This document shows, one piece after another, positions 2,547-24,837 of a DNA stretch of 35,419 bases (the first letter of the stretch is position 1; each line of letters starts with the position of its first letter). Position numbers and translations under genes: made by a program. The DNA comes from Chloroflexota bacterium (GTDB taxonomy: Bacteria > Chloroflexota > Limnocylindria > P2-11E). The DNA is taken from positions 1 to 35,419 of the forward strand of contig JAJYLV010000012.1 in the NCBI GenBank assembly GCA_021787445.1. Direction: 5' to 3'. The notes below the pieces were generated by a model. The model ran no database searches. It saw nothing but the letters and a program-made list of their open reading frames with translations, and was not told the DNA's origin.

Positions 2547-4294
2547 CCTTTCCCCTCGAGGTGCCGAAGGAGCTCGGTGAGCGGCATCGTGTTCTGCACG
2601 CGAGCCTTGGTGGCCCAGCCTCGCCGCGCTGTCGCGACGGCGTACTCCATCTGGTCGAGCTCCTCGACGGCGTGCGCGTCGGAGTTGCACACGAGCATGA
2701 CCCCGGCGTCGATGGCGCGGCGGACGGCGACGTCGGAGAGGTCGAGGCGCTCCGGGCCGCCGTTCACCTCGAGCCGCGTCTTCGTGCGCACCGCGGCGGC
2801 GATGACCGCCTCGAGGTCCACCTCGTACGGGTCTCGCCGCTCGAGGAGGCGTCCCGTCGGGTGCGAGATGGCGTTGACGCGCGCGTGCCCCATCGCGCCG
2901 ACGATCCGCTTGGTCATCACCTCGCGCTCCTGCGAGAAGGCCGAGTGCACCGACGCGGTTACGACCTCGAACGACGCGAGCGTCTTGTCGTCGTAGTCGA
3001 GCTTGCCGCTCGAGCGGATCTCCACCTCCGTCCCCACGAGGATCCGGAACGGCTCCATCTTCTCGTTGACGGCCGCGATCTCCTTCGTGCGCTCGCGGAT
3101 GCGCTCGGCGTTGAGGCCGTGCGTCATGCCGAGGCCGACCGAATGGTCGGTCAGCGCGAGGTACTCGTAGCCCTTGGCGCGGGCGCGCTCGGCCATCGCC
3201 GCGACGGTGTCGCGCCCGTCGGTCCAGCTCGTGTGCGCGTGGAGGTCGCCGCGGATGTCGGAGAGCGCGACGAGCCGCGGCAGCCCGTGCGCGAGCGCGG
3301 CGTCGACCTCGCCGCGGTCCTCGCGCAGCTCGGGAGGGATCCAGTCCATCCCGAGCGCGGCGAAGACCTCCTCTTCCGTTCGGGAGGCGATCGGGTTCCC
3401 GGTCTTCTCCTCGCCGACGCGGAAGAGGCCGTACTCGTTGAGGAGGAGCTTCCGCTTGAGCGCGAGGCCGCGGAGGCGGACGTTGTGTTCCTTGGAGCCC
3501 GTGAAGTACATGAGCGCGGCGCCCCACGACGCCGGCGGGACGACGCGCAGGTCGATCTGGAGACCGCGCGCGACGAGGATCGACGACTTCGTCTCGCCGC
3601 GCGCGAGGACGCGCTCGACGCTCGGCGCCTCGCAGAACGCCTTCATGATCGGACCCGCAGCCGCCGCGGCGACGAGGACGTCGACGTCGCCGATCGTCTC
3701 GCGCCAGCGGCGCACGCTCCCCGTGACGGAGATGAGCTTCGGGTCACGCTTCTCGCGGAGATACGCAACGATCTCGTTCGCGGCGGCGCGCGCGTCGATG
3801 AGGAGCGAGCGGCCGGTGCGCTGACGGAGCGACGCGATGGAGCGCAGGATGTTCTCCTCCGTCTTGGCCTGGATCTTGGGGAGCGACCGGAGCCGCCCCG
3901 CCTTCGCGGCCTCCTCGAGGTCGTCGATCGTCGTGATCTTCAGGTTGTCGTAGATGACGCGCGCGGTCGCCGGTCCGACGCCGGGAACGCTCAGCAGCGT
4001 GAGCAGGCCCGCGGGGACCTCCTTCGTGAGCTGCTGGTGCCGCGTCGACGTCCCGGTCGTCAGGAGCTGCTCGATCGCCTCCGCGATCGCCGGCCCGACC
4101 TTGGGGATCTCGTCCAGGCGCTTCTGCTCCATGAGGACGCGGAGCGGCTCCCGCAGGTCGCGGATGGCGCGAGCGGCGGCGCGGAACGTGACCGCGCGGA
4201 AGGGGTTCTCGCCCTTGAGGTCGCTGAGGTCCGCGATCTCCTCGAGGACGGCGGCGACCTCCTCGTTGCCGTAGGCGAGAGAGGTGCGCGGCAT
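2543..4294 (-). CDS. polX: Family X DNA polymerase with PHP exonuclease domain (PolX)
   Basis: Bacterial PolX fills short gaps in base-excision repair and carries a 3'-5' exonuclease in its PHP domain. The 583 residues match the usual size. Domain order is: N-terminal helix-hairpin-helix lyase-like region (about 1-150; IPKVGPAIAEAIEQL and VPGVGPATARVIYD), nucleotidyltransferase palm with GSVRRWRETIGDVDVLV (metal-binding DxD), thumb with YFTGSKEHNVRLR, and PHP (about 335-575). All expected PHP metal ligands can be seen: GDLHAHTSWTDG, LTDHS, GTEVE, SVHS, ISHP and CNSDAH, so exonuclease activity is likely retained. A TACTCT hexamer (minus strand, 4302-4307) lies seven bases before the ATG, suggesting a leaderless promoter. 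Acylphosphatase follows with a 4-bp overlap. Confidence 0.94.
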   Translation of the reverse strand: MPRTSLAYGNEEVAAVLEEIADLSDLKGENPFRAVTFRAAARAIRDLREPLRVLMEQKRLDEIPKVGPAIAEAIEQLLTTGTSTRHQQLTKEVPAGLLTLLSVPGVGPATARVIYDNLKITTIDDLEEAAKAGRLRSLPKIQAKTEENILRSIASLRQRTGRSLLIDARAAANEIVAYLREKRDPKLISVTGSVRRWRETIGDVDVLVAAAAAGPIMKAFCEAPSVERVLARGETKSSILVARGLQIDLRVVPPASWGAALMYFTGSKEHNVRLRGLALKRKLLLNEYGLFRVGEEKTGNPIASRTEEEVFAALGMDWIPPELREDRGEVDAALAHGLPRLVALSDIRGDLHAHTSWTDGRDTVAAMAERARAKGYEYLALTDHSVGLGMTHGLNAERIRERTKEIAAVNEKMEPFRILVGTEVEIRSSGKLDYDDKTLASFEVVTASVHSAFSQEREVMTKRIVGAMGHARVNAISHPTGRLLERRDPYEVDLEAVIAAAVRTKTRLEVNGGPERLDLSDVAVRRAIDAGVMLVCNSDAHAVEELDQMEYAVATARRGWATKARVQNTMPLTELLRHLEGKG

Positions 4295-4316
4295 GCCCTA
4301 GAGAGTAGGTCGTGGG

Positions 4317-5627
4317 CTAGTGCTTGGCGGCGGTCCCCTGCGCGAGCTCCAGCATGGCGAAGGCTTCCTCGAGCTGACCTCGCGCACGGAGGACGCGCGC
4401 GTACTCGGCGGCCATGTCCGACCGGTCCGCGACGTCGTTCACGTCGGAGTAGATCTCGAGCGAGCGCCGGTAGGCGGCATCCGCCGCGGAGTGGTGGCCG
4501 AGCGCCTCGTTCGCCGCGCCCAGCGCGCCCTGCGCGTCCGCCTGCTGGATGCGGTCACCGGCCTCGTCGAGGAGCTTCTCGGCGTGCGACGCCATCCGCA
4601 GCGCCTCGTCCGCGTATCCCTCGCGCAGGGCGACGCGCGCGAGGATCACCTCCGCCACCGCGGCCCACCGGACGTTGCCGACCTCGACCGCACGCGACAT
4701 CGCGCGATGCGCGGAGGCCTTCGCCTCCGACATCTCGCCGCTCTCGAACTGCACCGTCGCGATCGACTGGAGCGCGTTGAGCTCGAAGTCGATGTCGGCG
4801 ATGCGCCGGAAGAGCTCGAGCGCGCGGCGGTAGTTCGCGATGGCGCTGTCGAGCTCGCCGGAGTCGTAGTGCGTCGCGGCCATACCCATGAAGCCACGGG
4901 CGGCGACCTCGAGCTCCGAGACGCGCGAGGCCATGGCGAGCGCCGGCTCGTACGCGGCGATCGCCTTGCTCGTGCGTCCGAGACGGCGGTAGACGGTGCC
5001 GAGCGAGATGAGGATCCGCGACCGCAGGCGGGTGTCGACGACCTCGTGCCTCTCGACGACGTCGCGCGCGCTCTCGTAGGCGTCGGTCGCGGCGACGAGC
5101 TGGCCGAGCTCGAGGTACGCGAATCCGCGGTCCATGAAGAGTGCCGCGGCGAGCTCGGGATCGGCCGCGACATCGAAGAGAGCGAGCGCTCTGTCCGCGA
5201 GCTCGAACACGTGCTCGAACTTCTTGTCGGCGATCTCCGCGCGCGCGAGGAGATGCAGGAGCCCGGCGCGGTCGACCCCCTCGGGCGACTGCTCGAGCCC
5301 GAGAGCGACCTGGTCGCGCACGGCGCGCCAGTCGCGGCGCTCCGCGGCGCTCTCGGCCGCGAGCTTGTGGAACGCGACGCGCTTGCCGCTCGCGAGGGGC
5401 TCGTCCCCGAGGAAGTAGTCGAGCGGCTTGCCGAGGCGTGCCGCGATGACCTGCAGCGAACGGATGGACGGCCGAACGGTCCCCGACTCCAGCTGGGAGA
5501 TAAAGCCCTTGGTCAGCTCCTCGCCCGCCAGACGCGCTTGGCTGAAACCGAGCGCTTTGCGTGCCGAACGGACGCGCTCTCCGAGAGTCGGGCCGTTCAC
5601 CGCCGCGTTGCCGTGTTTGCCGGGCAT
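4317..5627 (-). CDS. Xre-family HTH regulator with TPR array (RRNPP-like)
   Basis: The 436-residue protein has an Xre/Cro helix-turn-helix at about residues 15-75 (TLGERVRSARKALGFSQ, then FISQLESGTVRPSIRSLQ). The remaining roughly 350 residues are helical TPR repeats, with recognisable cores such as GFAYLELGQLVAATDAYESA, SLGTVYRRLGRTSKAIAAYE, DSGELDSAIANYRRALELF and GAANEALGHHSAADAAYRRS. An HTH plus TPR architecture is that of RRNPP regulators (PlcR, NprR, Rgg, PrgX), whose TPR domains bind secreted peptides re-imported by the cell. A gene for a small secreted protein starts 130 bp away on the opposite strand, as expected for such pairs. GGAGG lies four bases before the ATG. The peptide-receptor role is inferred: many Xre-TPR proteins have unknown ligands. 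Confidence 0.88.
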   Translation of the reverse strand: MPGKHGNAAVNGPTLGERVRSARKALGFSQARLAGEELTKGFISQLESGTVRPSIRSLQVIAARLGKPLDYFLGDEPLASGKRVAFHKLAAESAAERRDWRAVRDQVALGLEQSPEGVDRAGLLHLLARAEIADKKFEHVFELADRALALFDVAADPELAAALFMDRGFAYLELGQLVAATDAYESARDVVERHEVVDTRLRSRILISLGTVYRRLGRTSKAIAAYEPALAMASRVSELEVAARGFMGMAATHYDSGELDSAIANYRRALELFRRIADIDFELNALQSIATVQFESGEMSEAKASAHRAMSRAVEVGNVRWAAVAEVILARVALREGYADEALRMASHAEKLLDEAGDRIQQADAQGALGAANEALGHHSAADAAYRRSLEIYSDVNDVADRSDMAAEYARVLRARGQLEEAFAMLELAQGTAAKH

Positions 5628-5643
5628 TGAGCCTCCGCTGCTA

Positions 5644-5659
5644 CCGGTCCCGAGACCGG
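5644..5659. promoter_or_regulatory. Inverted repeat CCGGTC-CCGA-GACCGG
   Basis: A perfect 6-bp inverted repeat with a 4-bp spacer lies 17 bp upstream of the Xre-TPR start codon, in the divergent intergenic region. The position suits an autoregulatory operator for the HTH protein, but it could also form a hairpin in the 5' leader of that mRNA. Confidence 0.45.
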
Positions 5660-5693
5660 ATCGACAGGTCGGATGATCGACCGCCTGCCTGTC
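5659..5693. promoter_or_regulatory. Compound repeats between regulator and peptide gene
   Basis: Three overlapping symmetries are visible. GATCGAC occurs as a direct repeat at 5659-5665 and 5675-5681 (16-bp period). GGTCG (5667-5671) and CGACC (5678-5682) form an inverted repeat with a 6-bp spacer. GACAGG (5663-5668) and CCTGTC (5688-5693) form a wider inverted repeat. This density of symmetry is suggestive of a multi-site operator; no binding evidence is available. Confidence 0.4.
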
Positions 5694-5724
5694 TTTGTGG
5701 TGGACTGTCAGGACTTTAGTTTGG

Positions 5725-5736
5725 CTGAACGTTCAG
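5725..5736. promoter_or_regulatory. Perfect 12-bp palindrome CTGAACGTTCAG upstream of peptide gene
   Basis: This uninterrupted palindrome ends 21 bp before the ATG of the secreted-peptide gene, close to where a promoter or transcription start would lie (a TTTAGT sits at 5715-5720). Its length and placement fit a dimeric Xre-type binding site controlling the peptide gene. Confidence 0.5.
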
Positions 5737-5757
5737 GTACAAGCGGGGGGTCGAGAG

Positions 5758-5997
5758 ATGAGACGGATCAGAAAGCTACTTCTGGCTCTGGGATTCGCGG
5801 CGACGCTGCTGCTGGCGTTCCCGATCGCGGCGTCGGCCGATCCGGGCGACGGCGGCGGGTTCTACGACCCGACGGCGACCACGCCCGTCGGTACGGTCAC
5901 GATCTCCGCGCCCGGCCAGGTCACGATCAAGGGGACCGCCGTCACGCCATTCGCGAGCAACTCGGCATCGGACCCGGGCGACGGCGGCGGCTTCTAG
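5758..5997 (+). CDS. Small secreted protein with duplicated terminal octapeptide (putative signalling-peptide precursor)
   Basis: The 79-residue product has a classical signal peptide: basic MRRIRK, a hydrophobic core, and a predicted cleavage after ...PIAASA (residue 27). The predicted 52-residue mature protein begins with DPGDGGGF (28-35) and ends with exactly DPGDGGGF (72-79), followed directly by the stop codon. The middle is Thr/Val/Pro-rich (e.g. GTVTISAPGQVTIKGTAVTP) and probably extended or beta. The two octapeptide-coding stretches differ at two codons, GAT/GAC and GGG/GGC, both synonymous. The ATG at 5758 is preceded by GGGGGG; a longer frame to 5695 exists but would mask the signal peptide. 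The neighbour is a divergent Xre-TPR regulator, so a secreted and re-imported pheromone is the leading idea. A structural surface peptide is the alternative. Confidence 0.8.
   Translation: MRRIRKLLLALGFAATLLLAFPIAASADPGDGGGFYDPTATTPVGTVTISAPGQVTIKGTAVTPFASNSASDPGDGGGF
5839..5862 (+). repeat. Octapeptide-coding repeat, copy 1 (DPGDGGGF)
   Basis: These eight codons encode residues 28-35, immediately after the predicted signal-peptidase site ASA. The copy differs from copy 2 only by GAT for Asp and GGG for the last Gly. Confidence 0.85.
5971..5994 (+). repeat. Octapeptide-coding repeat, copy 2 (DPGDGGGF, C-terminal)
   Basis: These eight codons encode residues 72-79 and abut the TAG stop. Pheromone precursors of the PapR/NprX type also carry the active peptide at or near the C-terminus. 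Both differences from copy 1 are synonymous. Confidence 0.85.
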
Positions 5998-6041
5998 AGA
6001 CGCTGAGAGCGGCGGGCGCGCGATCGCTCGATACTGATCGC

Positions 6042-6251
6042 GTGCCCGCCGCCATCTCCTCCGACCGCAAGCAGCAGCTCGAGGTCGACGGCAAGCAGTT
6101 CCTCTTCCAGCACGGCTACCGCTTCGGAAAGGTCACGTACATCACGCGCCTTCCCCTCTCCCGCAGCCGGATCGCGTGGACGCCCGGGCACCTCACCGCG
6201 GAAGAGGTCGAACAGGTGATCCGGGGGGATGACCCCTGGATGCTGGAGTGA
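6042..6251 (+). CDS. Small soluble protein, unknown function
   Basis: A 69-residue product begins at GTG 6042 (VPAAISSDRKQQLEVDGKQF). It contains FQHGYRFGKVTYITRLPLSRSRIAWTPG in overlapping segments and ends HLTAEEVEQVIRGDDPWMLE. It is mixed basic and aromatic, with no membrane segment. A GATACT hexamer (6030-6035) ends six bases before the GTG and no Shine-Dalgarno is seen, so the mRNA may be leaderless. The same frame is open back to 5673, but that part overlaps the peptide gene in another frame and is treated as shadow. dtd starts 14 bp downstream. Family not recognised. Confidence 0.6.
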   Translation: MPAAISSDRKQQLEVDGKQFLFQHGYRFGKVTYITRLPLSRSRIAWTPGHLTAEEVEQVIRGDDPWMLE

Positions 6252-14500: not shown

Positions 14501-15160
14501 TCAGTCATACAGGCGGCTCCGGACTTCCGCTTCGATGGCCGTAGGCGCGAGCACGATGATCCGGTCGCCGGCCTGAAGCGCGGCATCCCCCACCGCCGGC
14601 AGGACCTTGCCGCCCCGCACGATCCCTCCGATGAGCGAGCCCTCCGGCAGCTGCAGCGCGCGCACCGGCTTCCCGACCGACGGCATCCCCGGCGCGATCT
14701 CGGCCTCGATGATCTCGAGGTGCGAGCCCGTGAGCGGCATGAGCGGGAGGAATCCGCCGGTCGGCAGCTCCTGCTCGATGATGTTCATGAGCACGCGCGT
14801 CGACGACAGCGTCTCGTCGATGCCGAGGGCCTTGAAGATGATCTCGTTCTTCGGGTCGGTCACGCGCGCGATGACGCGTCCGTGGGGGCCGCAGTTGTAG
14901 CGGGCGAGCTGGCAGATGACGAGGTTCTTCGCGTCCTCCCCGGTGACCGCGATGACCGCGTCCGCGCGCTGGCACCCCGCCTCGAGCTGGTAGCGGCCCT
15001 CGTCCGCCGGAGCGTTGAGGACGACGGATCCGAGCTGCTCCTCGATCCACTGCGCGCGGTGGCGGTCCTGCTCGATGACCATGACCTCGTGACCGGCCTC
15101 GATGAGCCCCTTCGCGAGGTGGAAGCCGATGTCGCCGCCTCCGGCGACGATGACGTACAC
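14501..15160 (-). CDS. TrkA/RCK-type potassium-channel regulatory protein (RCK_N + RCK_C)
   Basis: The 219-residue product begins at GTG 15160. It has a Rossmann RCK_N domain (about 1-125) with VAGGGDIGFHLAKGL (GxGxxG) and an acidic residue after strand 2 (VIEQD). Conserved VIAVTGEDAKNLV and RVTDPKNEIIFKALGID follow, then an RCK_C domain (about 135-219; LEIIEAEIAPGMPSVGKPVR, AGDRIIVLAP). Such proteins gate TrkH/KtrB or other transporters in response to NAD(H), ATP/ADP or c-di-AMP. The last gene of the operon, it sits 2 bp after the previous trkA-like gene. No TrkH/KtrB pore gene is present; the linked transporters are KimA-like. Confidence 0.9.
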   Translation of the reverse strand: MYVIVAGGGDIGFHLAKGLIEAGHEVMVIEQDRHRAQWIEEQLGSVVLNAPADEGRYQLEAGCQRADAVIAVTGEDAKNLVICQLARYNCGPHGRVIARVTDPKNEIIFKALGIDETLSSTRVLMNIIEQELPTGGFLPLMPLTGSHLEIIEAEIAPGMPSVGKPVRALQLPEGSLIGGIVRGGKVLPAVGDAALQAGDRIIVLAPTAIEAEVRSRLYD

Positions 15161-15162
15161 GG

Positions 15163-15672
15163 CTAGCGCTCCCCCGCGGCCGCCGCGGGCGGCGCGGCGT
15201 CGCGCGCCTCCTCGCCGGCGAGCTTCCGCTCGAGCGCGAGCGTCCGCCGGAGGAGCACCTCCCCGACCTCCGGGTCCTGCTCGAGCATCGCTCTGAGGAG
15301 CACGGCGAGGATCGACGTCCGCGAGAACGTCATCAGGCCCTTGGCCCGGTAGATCTCGGCGCGGATGGGGTCGTTGCACTTGGCGAAGGCTCGCTTCACG
15401 CCGAAGATCTCTTTGGCGACCTGCGCCGCCATGAGGTTGCGGTTGTCCCCGTCGGTCAGGGCGAGGAACGCGTCGACCTTGTCGACGCCGACCTGGCGCA
15501 GGACGTCGAGGTCGATGCCATTGCCGAGGAACGTCGTCCCCCCGAACCCCGCGGGAAGGTGCGCGAAGGACGCACGGTCACGGTCGACGACCGTGACCTG
15601 GTGGCCGCCCTCGTCGAGCAGTCCCGCCAGCGTCGCGCCCACCCGCCCGGATCCAACGATGAGGATGTTCAC
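15163..15672 (-). CDS. Short TrkA-N (RCK_N) protein lacking RCK_C
   Basis: The 169-residue product begins at GTG 15672, overlapping the USP gene stop (GTGA), with GGAGG upstream. A complete Rossmann nucleotide-binding domain (about 1-135) shows VGSGRVGATLAGLLDEGGH, an acidic end of strand 2 (VVDRD), ALTDGDNRNLMAAQVAKEIF and KCNDPIRAEIYRAKGL. After about 140 there is only a helical, then Ala/Pro-rich tail; no RCK_C ligand domain can be seen. It may form a mixed octameric ring with the full-length RCK protein encoded next to it, or act alone. Not a truncation by frameshift: the stop is followed at once by the next start. Confidence 0.88.
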   Translation of the reverse strand: MNILIVGSGRVGATLAGLLDEGGHQVTVVDRDRASFAHLPAGFGGTTFLGNGIDLDVLRQVGVDKVDAFLALTDGDNRNLMAAQVAKEIFGVKRAFAKCNDPIRAEIYRAKGLMTFSRTSILAVLLRAMLEQDPEVGEVLLRRTLALERKLAGEEARDAAPPAAAAGER

Positions 15673-16097
15673 TGTGAAGCCTCCTGACGATAGGCGAGCA
15701 CCGCACAGTGCGCTCCGAGGTAGACCTCTTCGACGGTGCGGCTCACGTACGTCCGGCCGAGGCGCCGGCGGTACGGCATGCCCATCAGGACGAGGTCGCA
15801 CTGGCGCTCGCGCGCGATGTCGACGATCGCCGCGGCCGCCTCCCGCGCCTGCAGGAGCTCGGTCTCGAGCTCGCCGCCCGACTGGGCCGCGATGCGCGCG
15901 GCGCTCGCGAGGAGCTCCTCGCCGTGGTCGAGCTCGGCGTCGAGGACGGCGTCGAGGGGGAGGTTCCAGCGCACCTCGATGACGTGAACGCCGTAGAGGC
16001 GCGCCTTCGCGGGCTTGCCGATGCTCACCGCGAGACGGACGACGTCCGGATCGACCGCCGACCCCGCGAGCGGAACGAGGATCTTCTTGTAGGCCAT
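15669..16097 (-). CDS. Universal stress protein (USP) domain protein
   Basis: The 142-residue product has the USP fold pattern: YKKILVPLAGS at the N-terminus, LYGVHVIEV as strand 2, and CDLVLMGMPYRRR leading to the C-terminal strand AHCAVLAYR. The ATP-binding signature of USPs (G-2x-G-9x-G-S/T) is not preserved: it reads GMPYRRRLGRTYVSRTVEEV, so it may not bind ATP. It lies between kimA-like and trkA-like genes, 24 bp after the former and overlapping the latter by 4 bp. KdpD normally carries a USP domain that senses c-di-AMP in some bacteria; the KdpD-like kinase in this locus lacks it, so this standalone protein could supply a sensory role. That is inference. Confidence 0.85.
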   Translation of the reverse strand: MAYKKILVPLAGSAVDPDVVRLAVSIGKPAKARLYGVHVIEVRWNLPLDAVLDAELDHGEELLASAARIAAQSGGELETELLQAREAAAAIVDIARERQCDLVLMGMPYRRRLGRTYVSRTVEEVYLGAHCAVLAYRQEASQ

Positions 16098-16121
16098 GCG
16101 CGTCGGCGGAGTGTAGGCCGC

Positions 16122-18185
16122 TCAGGCCCCGCGGACCGGCGCTTCCTCCTCGCGCCCGACGGCGCTGAAGTGGTAGGGGACGTCGATGACGATCGTGTTC
16201 GGGCGGAAGAGGAGCGCCCAGCGGAGACGGAACGCCGTCTGGCTGTGCAGGATCAGCTCCCACCAGTGGCGTGGGATGAACTCCGCGAGCACGACGGTGA
16301 TCGGCCGCGGATCGCGCTCGTCGACGCGGTCGACGTACTTCAGGAGGGGCTGGAGGAGCGCGCGGTACGGCGACTCGATGATGTCGAGCGCGATCTCGCG
16401 CCCGTCGGAAAGATGCCGTCCCGACCAGCGCTCCCAGCGGCTTCGGAAGATCGTCGCCGACTCCGCGCTCGTGGCGACGTGCACGGCGCGCACGTGCGGC
16501 GAGATCGAGACGGCGAAGCCGAGCGCGCGGACGGCGGACAGATCGAGACGCGCGACCGGCACGAGCACGATGGGCACCGTCGGCCGCAGGACGGCACGGT
16601 CCGGATCTTCGATCACGAGCGCGTCCGCCACGGCGCTGTAGTGCCGGTGGATGGCGAAAAGGAGGAGAACGAGCAGCGGCAGCATGACGATGACCATCCA
16701 GGCGCCGTACTCGAACTTCGTGGTCGCGACGATGAGGAGCGTCGCGCCGGTCGCGAACGCGCCGACTGCGCTGATAGCGATACGCCACTGCCAGCCACGT
16801 TCGTGGCGCACCCACCAGCGTCGCACGAGGCCCGACTGCGCGAGCGTGAACGCCATGAATACGCCGATCGTGTACAACGGGATGAGGTTCGTGACACTGC
16901 CGCCGAACGCCGCGAGGACGAGCGCGGCGGCGATGGCGAGCGCGACGATCCCGACGGAGAACGCCAATCGCTCGCCGCGGAAGGAGAACTGCCGCGGCAT
17001 GAAGCGGTCGTCGGCGAGGACCGAGGCGAGGCGCGGGAACCCGGTGAACCCCGTGTTCGCGGCGAGGATGAGGAGGACCGAGGTCGAGATCTGGACGAGG
17101 TAGTAGTAGGCGCCCTTCCCGACGAAAGTGCGCGTGACGACGCTCATGACCGTCTCCTGCTCCTTCACGTCGGGAAGCGCGTGGGTCTGCGCCGCGAGGA
17201 AGGTGAGGCCGAAGAGGACGACACCGTAGACCGATCCCATGAGGAGGACGGTGATGACGCCGTTGCGCGCCTCCGGCGGGCGCAGGCTCGGCGTGCCGTT
17301 CGCGACGGCCTCGGCTCCGGTGAGGGCCGCGCACCCGGACGCGAACGCGCGAAGGATCAGGAAGATGCCGAGGGCCTCCGTCCCGGTCGACGGGAACGGA
17401 TTCGGTGGAACGGCGGTCGGAGGCATCGCACCGGTGAAGATGTGGAACGCGCCGAAGAGGATCAGGCCGAGCATCGCGAGGAGGTAGATGTACGTCGGCC
17501 CCGCGAAGATGAGGCCGGCCTCGCGTACGCCGCGAAGGTTCCCGAGCATGATCAGGGCGATGAGCGCGACCCCCCAGAAGACACGGTGCTCGAACACGGG
17601 CTGGACGAAGCTGCCGATCGCGTCGACGCCTGCCGCGGTCGAGACGGCGACCGTGAGGGTGTAGTCGATGAGAAGCGACCCGGCGACGACGAGACCGGGG
17701 AGCGTGCCGAGCTCATGCTTCGCGACGGCGTAGCTGCCCCCTCCGCCCGGATACGTGCGGATGACCTGGGTCTGCGAGATGATGACGATACCGAGGACGA
17801 CGATGATCGCGATCCCGATCGGCATCGTAAGGAAGAGGGCGCCTGTCCCCGCGAGAGCGAGGACGCGCATGACCTCCTCGATCGAGTAGGCCGACGACGA
17901 GATGTTGTCGGTCGCGAGGACACCGAGGCCGGTGGCCACTCCCAGACGCTCGGAGAGCTCGTGCTCCGTCGAGATCGGAGGGCCGAAAAGGATGCGACGA
18001 AGCAGCTCGTAGCCGCGGCCAGCGGACGTCTGCGGCTTGAGCGCCTCGTCCGTCGCGACGAACATGCCGCCACGCCCGCGGCGGAACTCCGGAGGTCGGA
18101 CGATGCGGACGTATCGGTTCCCGGGCAGCGCTCCCGTGCGCGTGGTCCGCTCCTCGAGGGGAGAGCCGTCGGCGGCGCGATCCAT
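16122..18185 (-). CDS. KimA-like potassium importer (APC superfamily), second paralogue
   Basis: The 687-residue product has about 85 cytosolic residues, then about 12 membrane helices (90-500), and a cytosolic USP-like C-terminal domain (about 520-680). The first helix carries ATDNISSSAYSIEEVMRVL and the third LLIDYTLTVAVSTAAGVDA; the equivalent Asp/Tyr/Thr/Ser positions line potassium sites in Bacillus KimA (YdaO). FASGCAALTGAEAVANG and LILAANTGFTGFPRL are also typical. KimA is a proton-coupled, c-di-AMP-inhibited K+ importer. Annotators often call such proteins amino acid permeases; the SDxxSSxAY-type helix argues for KimA. The ATG at 18185 is chosen; a GTG at 18221 is possible. A paralogue precedes it by 56 bp. 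Confidence 0.85.
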   Translation of the reverse strand: MDRAADGSPLEERTTRTGALPGNRYVRIVRPPEFRRGRGGMFVATDEALKPQTSAGRGYELLRRILFGPPISTEHELSERLGVATGLGVLATDNISSSAYSIEEVMRVLALAGTGALFLTMPIGIAIIVVLGIVIISQTQVIRTYPGGGGSYAVAKHELGTLPGLVVAGSLLIDYTLTVAVSTAAGVDAIGSFVQPVFEHRVFWGVALIALIMLGNLRGVREAGLIFAGPTYIYLLAMLGLILFGAFHIFTGAMPPTAVPPNPFPSTGTEALGIFLILRAFASGCAALTGAEAVANGTPSLRPPEARNGVITVLLMGSVYGVVLFGLTFLAAQTHALPDVKEQETVMSVVTRTFVGKGAYYYLVQISTSVLLILAANTGFTGFPRLASVLADDRFMPRQFSFRGERLAFSVGIVALAIAAALVLAAFGGSVTNLIPLYTIGVFMAFTLAQSGLVRRWWVRHERGWQWRIAISAVGAFATGATLLIVATTKFEYGAWMVIVMLPLLVLLLFAIHRHYSAVADALVIEDPDRAVLRPTVPIVLVPVARLDLSAVRALGFAVSISPHVRAVHVATSAESATIFRSRWERWSGRHLSDGREIALDIIESPYRALLQPLLKYVDRVDERDPRPITVVLAEFIPRHWWELILHSQTAFRLRWALLFRPNTIVIDVPYHFSAVGREEEAPVRGA

Positions 18186-18241
18186 CCCCGCCCGACCGTG
18201 CCGCTCGCCCTCGTCCGCCACTGGCGGCGTAGCGTAGCGAC

Positions 18242-20296
18242 CTAGCTCGCGCTCTCGCTCGCCTCCCCGAAAGCCTCGTCCAAGTGGAACGGCACGTCGC
18301 AGACGACGGTGTTGCGCCTGAAGAAGAGGCGGAACTTCAGGCGAAGCGCCGCCTGGTTGTGGAGGAAGCTCTCCCAGAAGTGATGGGGGACGAACTCCGG
18401 CAGAACGACGACCGTCGTCCGGCCCGGCTCCTGCTCGTCGAGCGCGTCGAGATACGCCAGGAGCGGCTGAACGAGGACGCGGTACGGCGACTCGACGATC
18501 GCCAGCGGGACGGGGCCGGCCCAGCGCTCCCAGCGCTGCCGCATGCGCTGGCCCTCCTCCAGCGTCTCGCTCACGTGGACCGCGAGCACGTCGGAGGCGA
18601 TGGCGCGCGCGAAAGCGAGGGCGCGCAGCGCGGAGCGGTCGAGGCGGTTGACCGGCACGACGACGCGCGGCGAGATCTTCGGCAAGGTCGGATCGGGTCG
18701 CTCGAGGGTCATCGCGTCGCGGACCCTCCGGTAGTGGGACCCGATGCCCCACATCACCGCGATCATGATCGGGATGAGCACGAGGACCATCCACGCGCCG
18801 AGCGCGAACTTCGCGACGCCGACCACGACGGCGACGACGGCGGTCGCGACCGCGCCGAGGCCGTTGAACGTCGCCCGCCACCACCAGCCCCGCTCCAGCG
18901 TCTTGAGCTTCCACCAGTGCCGGACCATCCCGGACTGGCTCAGCGTGAACGCGACGAAGACGCCGATCGTATAAAGCGGGATGAGGGCCGTGACGCTCCC
19001 GCCGAAGCCGACGATGAGCCCCGCCGCGAGGAGCGAGAGCACGATGATCCCGGTGCTGAACGCGAGGCGGTCGCCGCGGTACGCGAACTGGTGCGGCATG
19101 AAGCCGTCGCGCGCGAGGATGCTCGAAAGCCGCGGAAAGTCGGCGAAGGCGGTATTTGCCGCGAGCACGAGGATGAGCGCGGTCGAGATCTGGACGAAGT
19201 AGTGATACGGGGTGCCGTCGCCGACGAGCGTCGCCGTGAGAATGCTGACGACGGTGTGCTCCTCGGTCGGGTCGGGGACGATCCCGAGCCGACCGGCCAG
19301 CACACCCATTCCCAAGAATACGACGCCGAAAGAGGTGCCCATGAGGATGAGCACGACGCGCGCGTTCTTCCATTCGGGCGGCTTGAAAGCGGGGATGCCG
19401 TTCGATACGGCCTCGACGCCGCTCAACGCGACGCTCCCTGATGCGAACGCCCGCAGCACGAGGAGGATCCCCAGCGCCTCGACGCCATGTGCGGCACGCC
19501 ACGCCGGGGGCGCCTGGTAGGCGGGTAGCGTCCCGGTCACCATGCGGAACAGGCCGAACGCGAGCATGCCGAGGATCGCGACGAGGTAGGCGTACGTGGG
19601 CAGCGCGAAGATCGTGGCGCTCTCCCGTATACCCCGCAGGTTCCCGATCATGAGCAGGAAGACGAACGCGACGCCGAGCGCGACGCGGTACGGGTAGAGC
19701 TCCGGGAAGATCGACGTGAGAGCTTCGTCCCCCGCCGCGATGGAGACCGATACGGTGAGGACGTAGTCGGTCATGAGAGCGCCGGCCGCGACGAGCCCTG
19801 CGAACGGTCCCAGATTGTCACTGGCGACGATGTACGAGCCCCCGCCGTTCGGGTATGCCCGCAGCGTCTGCTGGTAGCTGGCTACGACGATCGCGAGGAC
19901 GGCGACGATGACGAGCGTGATGGGCATCGTGAGGGTGAGCGCACCGACGCCCGCGAGGACGAGGACGCGCATGATCTCTTCGGTCGCGTACGCGGAGGAC
20001 GAGATGTTGTCGGACGCGAAGACGGCGAGACCCTTGATGATGCCGACGCGCTCGTGGATCTCGTGCTCCGACGGTATGCGAGCGCCGAAGAGGAAGCGCC
20101 GCATGGCATCGCCGACGCGGCCGACGCGACCCTCGGGCGCGAGGACCTCCTCGCCGGCGACGACGTAGCCGGGGCCGCGGCGGCGGAACTCTCGCGGCCG
20201 GACGATCCGGACGTAGCGGTCGCCGGGACGCTTTCCGTGCTCTACGTGGCGCTCGAGCAGGTCGAGCGCGCTCCGCCGATCGCGTTCTTCGGACAC
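18242..20296 (-). CDS. KimA-like potassium importer (APC superfamily), first paralogue
   Basis: The 684-residue product shares architecture with its downstream paralogue: a charged N-terminus with GDRYVRIVRPREFRRRG, about 12 membrane helices with ASDNISSSAYATEEIMRVL and LMTDYVLTVSVSIAAGDEA, and a C-terminal cytosolic domain (VVVPVNRLDRSALRALAFA, then VVVLPEFVPHHFWESFLHN). The N-terminal RYVRIVRP motif occurs in both copies. Start GTG 20296; a TACGCT hexamer (minus strand, 20304-20309) ends seven bases before it. It heads the minus-strand operon with kimA-2, usp and two RCK genes, and is divergent from kdpD across 66 bp containing CCTCAACGG repeats. Amino acid permease is the alternative reading. 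Confidence 0.86.
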   Translation of the reverse strand: MSEERDRRSALDLLERHVEHGKRPGDRYVRIVRPREFRRRGPGYVVAGEEVLAPEGRVGRVGDAMRRFLFGARIPSEHEIHERVGIIKGLAVFASDNISSSAYATEEIMRVLVLAGVGALTLTMPITLVIVAVLAIVVASYQQTLRAYPNGGGSYIVASDNLGPFAGLVAAGALMTDYVLTVSVSIAAGDEALTSIFPELYPYRVALGVAFVFLLMIGNLRGIRESATIFALPTYAYLVAILGMLAFGLFRMVTGTLPAYQAPPAWRAAHGVEALGILLVLRAFASGSVALSGVEAVSNGIPAFKPPEWKNARVVLILMGTSFGVVFLGMGVLAGRLGIVPDPTEEHTVVSILTATLVGDGTPYHYFVQISTALILVLAANTAFADFPRLSSILARDGFMPHQFAYRGDRLAFSTGIIVLSLLAAGLIVGFGGSVTALIPLYTIGVFVAFTLSQSGMVRHWWKLKTLERGWWWRATFNGLGAVATAVVAVVVGVAKFALGAWMVLVLIPIMIAVMWGIGSHYRRVRDAMTLERPDPTLPKISPRVVVPVNRLDRSALRALAFARAIASDVLAVHVSETLEEGQRMRQRWERWAGPVPLAIVESPYRVLVQPLLAYLDALDEQEPGRTTVVVLPEFVPHHFWESFLHNQAALRLKFRLFFRRNTVVCDVPFHLDEAFGEASESAS

Positions 20297-20318
20297 TCCG
20301 CCGAGCGTACGGGACGCA

Positions 20319-20338
20319 CCTCAACGGGCCCTCAACGG
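20319..20338. promoter_or_regulatory. Direct repeat CCTCAACGG x2 (11-bp period), candidate KdpE box
   Basis: CCTCAACGG occurs at 20319-20327 and 20330-20338, one helical turn apart, in the 66-bp region between divergent kimA and kdpD. OmpR/PhoB-family regulators such as KdpE bind tandem direct repeats of this spacing. The second copy falls where the -35 box would be relative to TAACGT (20353-20358) in front of kdpD, as for PhoB-type activation. It could serve both promoters. Confidence 0.55.
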
Positions 20339-20362
20339 AGGTGCGGCCGCGCTAACGTTCCG

Positions 20363-21964
20363 ATGACCGTGGGCTTCAGCGGCTCCGCGCCCTTCCGCTA
20401 TGCGGCGGCACTCGCCGCGGTCCTCGCGATGACCGTCGTCATCGCGTTCATGCTCATGGTCACGGGGGCCCAGCAGCTCTCGATCCTGTACCTCATCGTG
20501 GTCCTGGCGGCCGCGACGAAGCTCGGGCGTGGACCCGCCATCTTCGCGTCGATCGCGGCATTCCTCGTCTACGACTGGTCCTTCACGAAGCCCTACCACC
20601 AGCTCGCGATCCAGGACCCGAGCGAGTGGATCTCGCTCCTTCTCTTCCTCGTGACGGCCGTGATCACGAGCGAGCTCGCCTCGAACGAGCGCGCCCGCGC
20701 CGACGAGGCGCAGCGTCGAGAGCGCGAGGCCGTCGTCCTCTTCGACGCGCTGCGTCTGATGAGCGGACCCGACCTCGACGCGGCTCTCAACGCGCTCGCG
20801 GAGCGCGTCCGGACCGAGCTGAACGCGGGCGCTACGGGCATCGAGCTCTCGATCGGCACGGAGCACCACGCTGCGGCCGCCGGCGATCCGAAGCCGCTCG
20901 CGCTCCTCCCACACGGCGGGCCGGGCCGGTCGGAGCTGATGGGGCCCGGGGACGAGCCGACGGCAACGCGCCGGGGATCGACGGGACGATGGGTGCGTAT
21001 CGTCCCGCCGGAGCGCAAGCCCGCATTCGAGGCTATGGGTCCGTGGCGGCGCTCTGTCGTGCCCGTCCGGATCGGAGAGCGCGCCATCGGGCGCGTCGCG
21101 CTCGTGCGCTCCGCGGAGAGCAGCGCTTTCGGCACGCTCGAGGACCGTTTCCTCGGCGTCGTCGCGTCGCAGCTCGGCCTCCTCGCGCGGCGGATGGAGT
21201 CCGAGCGCGCCGCGAGCGAGGCGGAGCTGCTGCGGCAGGCGAGCGAGCTGAAGACGGCGGTGCTCAACGCCGTCTCTCACGACCTCCGCACGCCGCTCGC
21301 GTCGATCGTCGCGTCGGCCGGGAGCCTCGCCCAGCGCGACGTCCCGTGGACGGAGGAGGACCGGGAGGCGTTCGTGTCGGCGATAGAGCAGGAGGCGGAG
21401 CGACTCGACCGCATCGTCGGGAACCTGCTCGACCTCTCGCGGATCGAGTCGGGCGTGCTCAAGCCGGACATCGCGCTCCACGACGTCGCGACCGTCGTGA
21501 ACGACGTCGTCGGCCGGATCGAGGCGCGGACGAGCGAGCGCCGGATCGACGTCCGCATCGCGCCGGAGCTCCCTCCCGTCCCGCTCGATCCTGTGGAGAT
21601 CGACCAGGTGCTCTCGAACCTGATCGAGAACGCGCTCCGGTACGCGCCGGCGGGCACGCGCGTTGACGTCGAGGTCGAGCGCGAGGGGGACGAGGTGGTC
21701 CTCGCGGTCGCGGACCGAGGGCCGGGCGTGCCGACGTCGGAGGTGGAGAGGCTGTTCGAGCCGTTCTACCGGATCCGCGGCAGCGCGCGGACGGGGAGCG
21801 GCGTCGGGCTCGGCCTCGCCGTGGCGAAGGGCCTCGTGGAGGCGCACGGCGGTCGCATCTGGGTAGAGGCACGGCATGGCGGCGGGGCCCGGTTCGCCTT
21901 TGCGCTTCGCGCGGAAGGGACACCGGACGCAGCTCACGCCGCGCCGACCCCGGCACGCCCATGA
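20363..21964 (+). CDS. KdpD-like sensor histidine kinase, lacking KdpD/USP N-terminal sensor domains
   Basis: The 533-residue product begins at ATG 20363 (MTVGFSGSAPFRYAAAL). It has four membrane helices of the DUF4118 type (about 12-110), with FLVYDWSFTKPYHQLAIQDP typical of KdpD. A GAF-like domain (about 140-295) follows, then HisKA with AVSHDLRTPLASIVASAGSL (phospho-His), and HATPase_c with N-box IDQVLSNLIENALRYAP, DRGPGVP and GVGLGLAVAKGLVEAHGG. It equals the C-terminal half of KdpD; the roughly 400-residue N-terminal KdpD and USP domains are absent. It is translationally coupled to kdpE (ATGA). No kdpFABC is nearby, so the target is probably the divergent kimA/usp/trk operon. Confidence 0.9.
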   Translation: MTVGFSGSAPFRYAAALAAVLAMTVVIAFMLMVTGAQQLSILYLIVVLAAATKLGRGPAIFASIAAFLVYDWSFTKPYHQLAIQDPSEWISLLLFLVTAVITSELASNERARADEAQRREREAVVLFDALRLMSGPDLDAALNALAERVRTELNAGATGIELSIGTEHHAAAAGDPKPLALLPHGGPGRSELMGPGDEPTATRRGSTGRWVRIVPPERKPAFEAMGPWRRSVVPVRIGERAIGRVALVRSAESSAFGTLEDRFLGVVASQLGLLARRMESERAASEAELLRQASELKTAVLNAVSHDLRTPLASIVASAGSLAQRDVPWTEEDREAFVSAIEQEAERLDRIVGNLLDLSRIESGVLKPDIALHDVATVVNDVVGRIEARTSERRIDVRIAPELPPVPLDPVEIDQVLSNLIENALRYAPAGTRVDVEVEREGDEVVLAVADRGPGVPTSEVERLFEPFYRIRGSARTGSGVGLGLAVAKGLVEAHGGRIWVEARHGGGARFAFALRAEGTPDAAHAAPTPARP

Positions 21965-22677
21965 GCGCGCGCGGCGCGCGGATCCTCGTCGTCGACGATG
22001 AGCCGGCGATCCTCCGCTCCCTGGAGCGCAACCTCCGCGGTCATGACTTCCAGGTCGAGACGGCCACGACCGCGGCCGAGGCCGTCGGGTCGCACGAGCG
22101 GACGCATCCGGACCTCGTGATCCTCGACCTCGGCCTGCCCGGCCCCGACGGTCTGTCCGTCATACGCGCGCTGCGTGAGGCCTCGAGCACGCCGATCATC
22201 GTCCTCTCGGTCCGCGGCGCCGATCGGGACAAGGTCGCGGCCCTCGACCTGGGGGCGGACGACTACCTGACGAAGCCGTTCAGCGTCGACGAGCTCCTCG
22301 CGCGGATCCGCGCGGCTCTGCGCCACGTCGCTCGACCCGCGAGCGGCGCCGCGGCGATCTTCCGCAGCGGCGACCTCTCCGTCGACCTCGAGCGCCGTCG
22401 CGTCACGGTCGGCGATCGAGAGGTGCGTCTCACGCCGACGGAATACGAGCTGCTTCGCGTCCTCGTGCGCTATCCCGACCGCGTCGTCACCGCGGGCATG
22501 CTCTTGGACGCCGTCTGGGGTCAGGATGCGGTCGCCGACTCGCACTATCTCCACGTGTACGTGGCGCGCCTTCGGCAGAAGATCGAACCAGACCCCCAGC
22601 ATCCGCGCTACATCGCGACCGAGCCGGGAGTCGGTTACCGCCTCCTCGTCGAGGAGACGAGGCGCAGCGTGATCTAG
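21961..22677 (+). CDS. kdpE: KdpE-like OmpR-family response regulator
   Basis: The 238-residue product has a canonical receiver domain (about 5-120): ILVVDDEPAILRSL (acidic pair), LVILDLGLPGPDG (phospho-Asp), IIVLSVRG and TKPFSVDELLARI (Lys). The winged-helix DNA-binding domain (about 140-235) shows VRLTPTEYELLRVLVRYPDR and HYLHVYVARLRQKIE. The ATG overlaps the kdpD-like stop by 4 bp and lacks its own ribosome-binding site, so coupling is likely. Its stop shares CTAG with that of the opposing phosphoesterase gene. Candidate binding sites are the CCTCAACGG repeats upstream of kdpD. Regulation of the divergent K+ operon is inferred from position. Confidence 0.93.
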   Translation: MSARGARILVVDDEPAILRSLERNLRGHDFQVETATTAAEAVGSHERTHPDLVILDLGLPGPDGLSVIRALREASSTPIIVLSVRGADRDKVAALDLGADDYLTKPFSVDELLARIRAALRHVARPASGAAAIFRSGDLSVDLERRRVTVGDREVRLTPTEYELLRVLVRYPDRVVTAGMLLDAVWGQDAVADSHYLHVYVARLRQKIEPDPQHPRYIATEPGVGYRLLVEETRRSVI

Positions 22678-23393
22678 AAGCCGACGGCGAGGCGCTCCGC
22701 GAGGATCGGCGGCAGACCGCGCGCGCGGATGCGCCGCTGCGTCTCGGCCACGTCGTACGGCGCGCGGCGGAATGTCACGGTCATCGCGCCGGTGTCGAGC
22801 ATCGCGTACGAGGCGTCGGGGTCGCCGTCGCGCGGCTGGCCGACGCTGCCGGGGTTCACGAGGCAGCTCGCATCGAGCGCGAGGGGCCGGCCGGCCTCGA
22901 TCCGCACGAGCGTCGTCCTCGCGCCGGAGCTGCGGAAGACCGCGGGGACGTGGGTGTGGCCGTTGCAGCAGTGCGGCGTCGACGCGATCCGCAGGGTCGC
23001 CTGCGCCTGCAGCGGCGAGACGACGTACTCCCACACCGGATCGCGCAGGCTGCCGTGGCAGAGAGTGAACTGACCGATCTCGCGCGTCGGAGGGAGCGCG
23101 GCGAGGACGTCGCGCTCCTCGCCGCTCAGCCACGAGCGGTGACGCCGCACGGCGGCGGCGGCGTGCGGATTGAACATCTCGAGCCCCTCGCCCGTGCCGG
23201 CGGCGAGGTCGTGGTTCCCGGCGACCATGACCGCTCGGCGCGCGCGGAGGAGCGCGAGGACGTCGGAGGGGTCGGGGCCGTAGCCGACCGTGTCCCCCAT
23301 CACCCAGATCGCGTCGACGGCGCCGGCCGCGGCGAGGACGGCCTCGAGCGCGACGAGGTTCGCGTGGACGTCCGAGAGGAGCGCGACCCTCAC
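22674..23393 (-). CDS. YfcE-like metallophosphoesterase
   Basis: The 239-residue product carries the calcineurin-like motif series in order: DVHAN, GDTVGYGPDP, GNHD, TLCHGS and NGHTHVPAVF, so the dinuclear metal site is complete. The substrate is unknown; relatives hydrolyse phosphodiesters such as cyclic nucleotides or act on small phosphoesters. The start GTG 23393 overlaps the stop of the HisA-like gene (GTGA). The open frame further upstream is shadow of that gene. It is the third gene of an rsmG / hisA-like / phosphoesterase operon and meets kdpE tail to tail with a 4-bp overlap. Confidence 0.88.
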   Translation of the reverse strand: MRVALLSDVHANLVALEAVLAAAGAVDAIWVMGDTVGYGPDPSDVLALLRARRAVMVAGNHDLAAGTGEGLEMFNPHAAAAVRRHRSWLSGEERDVLAALPPTREIGQFTLCHGSLRDPVWEYVVSPLQAQATLRIASTPHCCNGHTHVPAVFRSSGARTTLVRIEAGRPLALDASCLVNPGSVGQPRDGDPDASYAMLDTGAMTVTFRRAPYDVAETQRRIRARGLPPILAERLAVGF

Positions 23394-24109
23394 GCCGCCG
23401 CGGCCGTCGCCTCGGCGATCGTCATCCGCCGCTCGAGGAGCGCGCGGCCGATGACGGCGGAGGTCGCGCCCCAGAGAGCGAGGCGCCGGACGTCCTCGAG
23501 CGACGAGATCCCGCCTCCGGTGTGGAAGCGCACGGCCGTCGCGCGCTCGACGAGCGAGGCGCGCACCTCCTCGAGGAGGTCGAGCGGCGGTCCGGCGAGC
23601 GCTCCGTCGGTCTCGAGGTCGATGACATAGAGGTCGGCGATCCCCGCGTCGGCCGCGGCCTTCGCGGCGGCGAGGACGCCGCGGCCCCGCGCGGCCTCGG
23701 CGAGCATCGCGTCGCCGCCGCGCGGAGAGAGCCACCCGTCACGCGACTCGAGCTCGACGATCGCGCCGCGCCCGAGGCGCGCGACCTCGCGCAGGAGGCC
23801 GTCGTCGGCGAACACCGCGGACGAGAAGAGAACACCCGAGAAGCCGGCGTCGAGCGCCTCGCGCCCGAAGGGCACGGAGGAGATACCGCCGGCGAGGCGG
23901 CAGGGGACGCGCGAGCGGCGCGCGATCGCGCCGAGCAGAGCGAGGTTCGCCGGGTCGCCACGCTCGGCCATGTCGCGGTCGACGAGGTGCAGCTCCGCGG
24001 CGCCCTCCGCGACGTAGTGCTCCGCGAGCTCCGACGGCGTGAAGCGGATCTGGACGCCGCGATAGGCGACGTGGCCGAAGCGGACGTCGATGGAGGGGAC
24101 GATCACCAC
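23390..24109 (-). CDS. HisA/HisF-fold protein outside a his operon (divergent HisA-like)
   Basis: The 239-residue product matches the HisA beta-alpha barrel from end to end: MVIVPSIDVRFGHV carrying Asp8, AAELHLVDRDMAERG, and HTGGGISSLEDVRRLALWGATSAVIGRALL near the C-terminus, shown in parts. HisA isomerises ProFAR in histidine synthesis. Several conserved sites differ. The second catalytic Asp region, normally IDxRDG, reads VELESRDG (Glu121). The first phosphate loop GGGIR reads AGGISS, and the TDI motif reads IDL. The neighbours are rsmG and a phosphoesterase, not his genes. It may be an active but diverged HisA or a barrel with another substrate. Starts at GTG 24109 or 24106 are both possible; the latter gives the GTGA overlap common here. 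Confidence 0.8.
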   Translation of the reverse strand: MVIVPSIDVRFGHVAYRGVQIRFTPSELAEHYVAEGAAELHLVDRDMAERGDPANLALLGAIARRSRVPCRLAGGISSVPFGREALDAGFSGVLFSSAVFADDGLLREVARLGRGAIVELESRDGWLSPRGGDAMLAEAARGRGVLAAAKAAADAGIADLYVIDLETDGALAGPPLDLLEEVRASLVERATAVRFHTGGGISSLEDVRRLALWGATSAVIGRALLERRMTIAEATAAAA

Positions 24110-24837
24110 GGCCGGCGCTTCATCTCCGCCGGCGTGCGCGGGTAGACGTCGGGTGTCGACCGGTCCTTCCGCATCACGACGAGGCTGCGTCCGGGCAGCT
24201 CTTCGGCAAGCCCGAGGGAGGCGGTCGGCACGATCGTCACCGAGCCGCCGCCGAGGGCCGCGAGCGCACGCTCAGCCGAGTGCAGCTCCGCATCCACCCG
24301 GCCCTTCCACACGATGGCATCGCCGCCGACCCGGAGGAACGGAAAGAGCAGCTCGACGCAGTGGGCGAGCGAGCCGAGCGCCCGCGCGGTCGCCACGTCG
24401 TAGCGCTCGCGATGCGCGCTCGTCCGCACCAGGTCCTCGGCGCGCGCGTTCTCCACCTCCGCGCGCTGGAGGTGGAGGAGGTCGCGAAAGCGCTCGATGG
24501 CGCGCGCCTTCTTCCCCGTCGCCTCGACGCACGTCACCGCGATGCCGGGGAGGGCGATCTGGAGCGCGAGCCCCGGGAATCCGGCGCCGCTCCCGACGTC
24601 GACGAGCTTCTCGCGGCCGGACCAGGCGCGGACGGCGTGCGCGGTGAACGAGTCGAGAAAGTGCTTGAGGGCGATGTCGTCCGGATCCGTGATGGCTGTG
24701 AGGTTGACGCTCGCGTTCGCCTCGACGAGCGCCGCGCCGTAGCGCGCACAGGCGTCCAGCTGGGCGTCGGTGAGGTGGAGGCCGAGCGTCGCGGCGGCGC
24801 GCTCGACGGCGGCGAACGGGCCGGCGGGGGCGGTCAT
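24103..24837 (-). CDS. rsmG: 16S rRNA (guanine527-N7)-methyltransferase RsmG (GidB)
   Basis: RsmG methylates G527 of 16S rRNA using SAM; its loss can give low-level streptomycin resistance. The 244-residue product has the family N-terminal helices, NLTAITDPDDIALKHFLDS, the SAM loop DVGSGAGFPGLALQIALPG, CVEATGKKARAIERFRDLL, ATARALGSLAHCVELLFPF and the C-terminal YPRTPAEMKRRPW. The start is ATG 24837; TAAGAT (minus strand, 24847-24852) ends nine bases upstream, close enough for a nearly leaderless mRNA. It heads an operon with the HisA-like and phosphoesterase genes. Upstream, GTCAC/GTGAC (24868-24883) is a short inverted repeat of unknown meaning. Confidence 0.95.
   Translation of the reverse strand: MTAPAGPFAAVERAAATLGLHLTDAQLDACARYGAALVEANASVNLTAITDPDDIALKHFLDSFTAHAVRAWSGREKLVDVGSGAGFPGLALQIALPGIAVTCVEATGKKARAIERFRDLLHLQRAEVENARAEDLVRTSAHRERYDVATARALGSLAHCVELLFPFLRVGGDAIVWKGRVDAELHSAERALAALGGGSVTIVPTASLGLAEELPGRSLVVMRKDRSTPDVYPRTPAEMKRRPW

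Follow-up and report, generated by a model that had tools for sequence, protein, structure and literature searches.

The window, i.e. the whole stretch of 35,419 nucleotides that was analysed, belongs to a Chloroflexota genome of 2.51 Mb (185 contigs, 95% complete). It carries a gene whose predicted product of 239 aa, read from a GTG start codon, matches PF00977 over residues 1-228 with 111.5 bits in a Pfam scan (Table 1). The HisA-family fold proposed in the first-pass annotation is thus confirmed, and so are the neighbours named there: the gene lies outside any his operon, with rsmG upstream and a gene for a calcineurin-type phosphoesterase downstream, to which the strand (minus), unstated in that annotation, is added here. 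The TGA of rsmG falls inside the start of the hisA-like gene, whose own TGA falls inside the GTGA start of the phosphoesterase gene. Concerning the wider surroundings, the potassium locus beside the gene encodes a TrkA protein, a pair of KimA-type importers and a histidine kinase that carries a DUF4118 domain and that we take to be KdpD-like.

Table 1. Position, strand and supporting evidence of the genes discussed in the text
Sequence	Feature	Position	Strand	Evidence and remarks
Window	Potassium locus	14501-21964		
Window	KimA-type potassium importer, predicted start	18242..20296	minus	PDB match 6s3k, E 1.5e-136
Window	Calcineurin-type metallophosphoesterase	22674..23393	minus	PF12850, 70.5 vs. 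27; under the YfcE cut-off; directly downstream
Window	HisA-family paralogue, proposed phosphoribosylanthranilate isomerase	23390..24109	minus	PF00977 match, residues, model
Window	rsmG, 16S rRNA methyltransferase	24103..24837	minus	114 bits vs. curated cut-off of 99.5; directly upstream
L063	Orthologue of the HisA-like gene in G028	5392-6132	minus	Most divergent orthologue, 44% identical
L048	Extra PF00977 paralogue of family f3 (example)	4132-4827	minus	

This arrangement recurs in the 23 loci that hold the gene. The phosphoesterase gene follows directly in 23/23, rsmG precedes in 22/23 (the exception, L022, begins at the end of a contig), and further along a KimA-like gene was detected in 21/23; as for the two KimA-negative loci, L020 stops too early and the flank analysed for L006 is short. 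A KimA-like gene is also present in L035, the matching region of the Chloroflexota bacterium REEB34 MAG.

As a whole, the window protein is poorly covered by the curated families. It scores 94.4 bits on the HisA model TIGR00007 (cut-off 228.95) and 67.8 bits on the bifunctional HisA-TrpF model TIGR01919 (cut-off 306.45), misses every curated cut-off of the 12 other NCBIfam models that it matches, and has no match to PF00697 (TrpF) in the Pfam scan at E 0.01. Since it fails the models of all three, it was filed under neither HisA, PriA nor TrpF. Identities as TIGR00734 (HisA/HisF-related), WbuZ or AglZ/HisF2 were rejected, with scores of 25.4, 50.9 and 53.8, far under their cut-offs. A chance reading frame was ruled out because full-length copies exist in 23 genomes, with D8, E121 and R130 invariant and dN/dS values of 0.14-0.32.

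An ordinary HisA, whose lack from the genome the first-pass annotation had named as one half of what would speak against its reading, is present at G000:C53 in the window genome and passes the curated HisA model (244.4 bits, cut-off 228.95); HisF lies at C31. As HisA and HisF are encoded on other contigs, the gene in the window adds a third paralogue to the genome.

Tryptophan genes and the missing trpF

The relatives sample comprised 101 genomes, i.e. that of the window and 100 relatives, among which the order is represented by 29 genomes (28 of the family of the window genome, plus G028). PF00697 was found in 0/29 genomes of the order and in 44 of the 101 genomes, all from other families, with 14/14 controls positive. 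As the TrpF proteins of the class score low on PF00697, a separate profile was built from six TrpF sequences of class relatives, and two trpF-bearing genomes served as positives: its best matches in the 29 genomes of the order were fragments at E 0.018, vs. about 1e-95 in the two positive genomes.

At the family level, trpC was found in 24/28 genomes, trpA in 25/28 and either of them in 26/28; G028 has both, which gives trpC or trpA in 27/29 genomes of the order. The trp genes of the window genome lie side by side: trpEG, which scores 1081 as anthranilate synthase (cut-off 739), is found in one run with trpD, trpC, trpB (608, cut-off 392), trpA and a gene for DAHP synthase, and trpC abuts trpB with no space for trpF; in G057, a class relative, trpF is placed between trpC and trpA. 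The HisA-like gene sits outside this operon, which counts against a role in the TrpF step. This uncultured order has apparently lost trpF.

A sample of 301 genomes from the phylum was also analysed, with trpC in 259, trpF in 251 and trpC without trpF in 12. The latter combination concerns 8/8 trpC-bearing genomes of the order vs. 4/251 others (Fisher's p 1e-12, on counts that are not independent), a value that is too strong, since the loss of trpF in the order may be a single event. Two of the four genomes outside the order have HisA and HisF but no full third copy and the other two have no PF00977 match; none has an orthologue, so their lack of trpF is not explained by the HisA-like gene, a further point against its role in the TrpF step. 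Three genomes, G228, G263 and G187 (90-97% complete, trpC present, trpF not detected), are candidates for separate cases of trpF loss: in G263 an ordinary HisA carries His at position R143 (PriA numbering), G187 has a HisA with Arg at this position, together with HisF and fragments of about 21 bits, and G228 has no PF00977 match.

Distribution, phylogeny and selection

Full-length orthologues were found in 22/28 genomes of the family and in G028, the sole other sampled genome of the order. The remaining 22 orthologues share 44-90% identity with the window protein, and D8, E121 and R130 are invariant across the set. G002 has only a 43-residue fragment of the gene, and five of the 29 genomes of the order (G003, G005, G010, G018 and G021) show no trace of it, which counts against a role in the TrpF step, the reading developed below. 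In three of these (G005, G018 and G021), rsmG is also absent from the assemblies, and in G010 rsmG runs off the contig end. In G003, of the same genus, rsmG is intact and is followed after 25 bases by another frame, taken as that of a sensor kinase, the HisA-like gene and the phosphoesterase gene being gone; trpC, trpA and trpF were likewise not found in this genome. The joint absence counts for the TrpF-step reading, but it is weakened by the completeness of G003, which is only 70%. Conversely, G020 has the HisA-like gene, yet trpC and trpA were not found there, which counts against that reading.

No orthologue was detected outside the order by a profile search of the 301 phylum genomes, where the best other matches reached 134 bits vs. 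288-377 bits for the eight members of the order. A related-locus search in genome contigs returned one near relative, titled 'Chloroflexota bacterium' REEB34, with 90% identity, and a single HisA-like locus with 30%. The G028 orthologue has GGS, not AGG, at the N-terminal phosphate loop and shares E121 and PRGG; judged from its sequence, it may represent an earlier stage of the change.

In a first tree, which came with a warning, long branches joined the orphan orthologues to HisF. The tree was rebuilt with 13 of the 23 orphans, leaving out HisF and the f3 paralogue; 14 HisA rows were added from 18 loci (three others being HisF and one an f3-type paralogue), and three HisA-labelled rows were dropped, two divergent and one a mislabelled HisF. 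In the comparison with HisA and PriA that the first-pass annotation had called for, the orphans form a single clade (support 100/100) whose placement is ambiguous: neither a grouping with PriA (p-AU 0.461) nor one with the resident HisA (p-AU 0.258) was rejected, and in the best tree they are nearest to the HisA of class relatives with a weak support of 67/41. Given this ambiguity, we claim neither that the resident HisA was recently duplicated nor that an older, displaced HisA survived. All four close orthologue pairs analysed gave dN/dS values of 0.14-0.32, i.e. purifying selection.

The extra PF00977 paralogue of family f3, in the same class (20 loci, L037-L056), was considered as a possible orthologue and rejected: it forms its own clade, lacks the D175 stretch and has Glu or Asp at R85 in 20/20. 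Genes for a beta-eliminating lyase (PF01212), a cyclophilin and a DUF885 protein lie near it in 18-19 of the 20 loci. As regards trpF, 18 of the 20 source genomes are among the 44 PF00697-positive ones, G033 and G088 being the exceptions. Locus L150, from an f5 genome about 1.0 Mb in size, encodes a protein similar to the f3 paralogue; the f5 genomes gave one match each in the relatives search.

Residues, models and proposed function

The residues of interest in the window protein are D8, H41, A73, S77, S97, E121, R130, G132, I163 and D168. The departures from HisA listed in the first-pass annotation hold: Asp8 is kept, Glu121 aligns with the second catalytic Asp (PriA D130), AGGIS (A73-G74-G75-I76-S77) replaces GGGIR and IDL (I163-D164-L165) replaces the TDI motif.

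Residues were tallied for the 23 orthologues and five resident HisA of the order in an alignment to M. tuberculosis PriA, with the numbering of the literature. D11, H50 and R143 are kept in 23/23 orthologues, and the D175 position is acidic in all of them (Asp in 9, Glu in 14). R19 and R85 are absent in 23/23, with a gap in one orthologue at R19, whose column lies beside an indel and is the least secure; W145 is replaced by Gly, T170 by Ile or Val and D130 by Glu in 23/23, T105 by Ser in 22/23, and S81 by Ala in 22 and Gly in one. The E109 position is Gly or Ala. The register at R143 was confirmed by an hhalign profile alignment, which places R130 of the window protein on this residue. The resident HisA of the order keep R19, R85, T105, D130, W145 and T170 in 5/5 and have, at R143, Ser in three, Ala in one and Lys in one (G028). 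The other HisA groups are mixed at R143; in the group 'HisA other', which includes one partial sequence, Arg stands there in 4/25 rows, G187 being one of them.

Modelled with AlphaFold (pLDDT 95.6), the window protein has as its best match 2y85, i.e. PriA with reduced CdRP, an analogue of the TrpF product (Z 32.1, 1.7 Å, 226 aligned positions, 28% identical), followed by the PRFAR-bound PriA structures 3zs4 (Z 30.4) and 2y88 (Z 30.0). The model of the resident HisA, used as a control (pLDDT 90.5), gave the opposite order, with 34.8 for 2y88 and 34.3 for 3zs4 vs. 31.9 for 2y85. These differences in Z exceed the tie margin of 1, but the comparison covers a single PriA protein, in two ligand-bound forms whose chains are unequal in ordered length. 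The predicted structures agree with a tryptophan-pathway ligand for the paralogue and a histidine-pathway ligand for the resident HisA.

The published enzymes are quoted here from excerpts of the cited papers. The loss of HisA activity in SubTrpF2 is put down there to changes at R19, R85, T105 (to Ser), W145 and T170, and R143, S81 and H50 are given as essential for activity on phosphoribosylanthranilate (PRA) (PMC13055916). In SubTrpF, Trp139 is changed to Gly and Arg83 is missing, with loss of HisA activity (excerpt of PMC5404923); we equate these with the W145 and R85 positions. Ala at 81 is carried by CAM1, a dual-substrate enzyme, according to the excerpt of PMC4462073. The tables excerpted from PMC4462073 and PMC5404923 give PriA enzymes kcat/KM values for PRA of 0.01-0.3 per uM per s. 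Part of the published evidence points the other way. The PriA mutation D130A lowers PRA activity, and R19 may also help PRA turnover, which R19 changes weaken (excerpt of PMC9088769); the invariant Glu and the loss of R19 therefore count against PRA as the substrate, although the active SubTrpF2 is also without R19. The excerpt of PMC4732765 further ties E109, with R143, to bifunctionality and associates Lys or another basic residue at 143 with bifunctional ancestors, so that the Gly or Ala at E109 in the orthologues and the Lys at 143 in the resident HisA of G028 were also counted against it.

With trpF missing and D11, H50 and R143 kept, the likely aminoaldose is phosphoribosylanthranilate. 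We give a probability of about 0.8 to the reading that the gene encodes a HisA-family isomerase specialised on PRA, which performs the TrpF step in a Chloroflexota order without trpF; the suggestion of the first-pass annotation that the protein had left histidine synthesis for another aminoaldose is thereby supported at the sequence level. From the gene content, fixed neighbourhood, residue pattern and purifying selection, all observed directly, we infer the activity, the specificity and each catalytic role that follows. The (beta/alpha)8-barrel would convert N-(5'-phosphoribosyl)anthranilate to CdRP, with Asp8 (PriA D11) and Asp168 (PriA D175) as the putative acid/base pair of the Amadori rearrangement, by homology to PriA. 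Arg130 (R143), in loop 5, would shield the anthranilate carboxylate and position Asp168, and His41 (H50) and Ala73 (S81) would line the anthranilate pocket. A single phosphate would be bound at the C-terminal GGG/GRAL site. Of the features that serve ProFAR, the second phosphate site and the stacking Trp appear to be gone, and for this reason we propose that the paralogue leaves histidine synthesis to the resident HisA.

It is unlikely that the resident HisA is itself a dual-substrate, PriA-like enzyme covering the TrpF step, with the paralogue isomerising another phosphorylated aminoaldose, perhaps tied to its phosphoesterase or potassium-transport neighbours. Lys at R143 in one of the five resident HisA rows (G028) would fit such an enzyme, but the other four have Ser or Ala there and all five have HisA-type residues elsewhere; some HisA enzymes do have low TrpF activity, as stated in the excerpt of PMC4732765, but the HisA of the window genome scores 179.6 on the bifunctional HisA-TrpF model vs. 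a cut-off of 306.45. The conserved rsmG - paralogue - phosphoesterase - KimA neighbourhood, away from any trp operon, and the trpF-lacking G187 and G263, which carry, outside the order, only HisA and HisF (plus the fragments of G187), also speak for a dual-substrate HisA, which nevertheless leaves unexplained that the paralogue combines kept R143 and H50 with lost ProFAR residues.

We consider it very unlikely that the paralogue is a non-catalytic regulatory or structural barrel. The replaced second catalytic Asp (E121) and the missing N-terminal phosphate Arg could be taken this way, but Glu is still an acid, 23/23 orthologues have D11, H50, R143 and an acidic residue at D175, and purifying selection was seen in 4/4 pairs. 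Even less credit is given to PRA isomerisation by an unrelated protein, e.g. a PurF-type side activity, with the paralogue incidental: the excerpt of PMC4732765 mentions that E. coli enzymes such as PurF have a residual TrpF activity but invokes it solely for extremely slow growth, and the residue and model evidence favours the paralogue.

Relation to known enzymes and significance

The PRA-specialised reading has close parallels in two enzymes of Actinomycetota. SubTrpF2 of Ornithinimicrobiaceae is, like the window gene product, a HisA-family enzyme found beside a separate HisA and outside the his and trp loci, with R19, R85, W145 and T170 changed and T105 turned to Ser (excerpt of PMC13055916). 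It rescues a trpF but not a hisA mutant. The two differ in origin, SubTrpF2 being PriA-derived and the window gene, in Chloroflexota, having an ambiguous nearest group in the tree; in neighbourhood; and in detail, W145 being Gly in the orthologues vs. Ser in SubTrpF2 and T170 Ile or Val vs. Ala, with Glu at D130 in the orthologues. SubTrpF of Actinomycetaceae, a PRA isomerase only, has in common with the orthologues the Gly at the W145 position and the loss of Arg at the R85 position (excerpt of PMC5404923). It evolved in gene-losing Actinomycetaceae under relaxed purifying selection, in contrast to the dN/dS of 0.14-0.32 (four close pairs) and the kept resident HisA seen here.

As for the larger families, the window protein shares with PriA, the bifunctional HisA/TrpF enzyme of Actinomycetota, the fold, D11, H50, R143 and an acid at D175, but it lacks the ProFAR-specific residues, is only 28% identical and falls below the HisA-TrpF cut-off. 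With HisA (TIGR00007) it has the family, the fold and Asp8 in common and differs at R19, R85, D130, W145 and T170. With TrpF (PF00697) it would share the reaction but has no match. Two features of a SubTrpF-type enzyme are found together, i.e. ProFAR-specific residues lost, R143, H50 and D11 kept, and trp genes without trpF in the window genome, and by analogy the gene is best read as a putative Chloroflexota counterpart of SubTrpF and SubTrpF2. PriA is called exclusive to Actinomycetota in the excerpt of PMC13055916. Among the matches listed from the open-licence PMC literature, preprints excluded, there was no report of a HisA-type TrpF in Chloroflexota.

Work on gene loss and enzyme promiscuity uses the HisA/TrpF pair as a standard model. 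In a wider scenario, to which we give slightly better than even odds, a dedicated PRA isomerase arose in Chloroflexota from the HisA family, independently of actinobacterial PriA and with Glu for the second catalytic Asp, and was kept across the order in an overlapping rsmG - isomerase - phosphoesterase run by KimA, so that the tryptophan step would be co-expressed with potassium uptake and ribosome modification and not with the trp genes. If the PRA-specialised reading is true, trpF was lost in a second phylum and its step was taken over by a specialist relative of HisA beside an intact HisA, which would provide a separate natural replicate with the same positions changed (R19, R85, T105 to Ser, W145 and T170). 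The gap in the tryptophan pathway of the order would then be closed, and a family-level label like 'histidine biosynthesis protein' would mislead.
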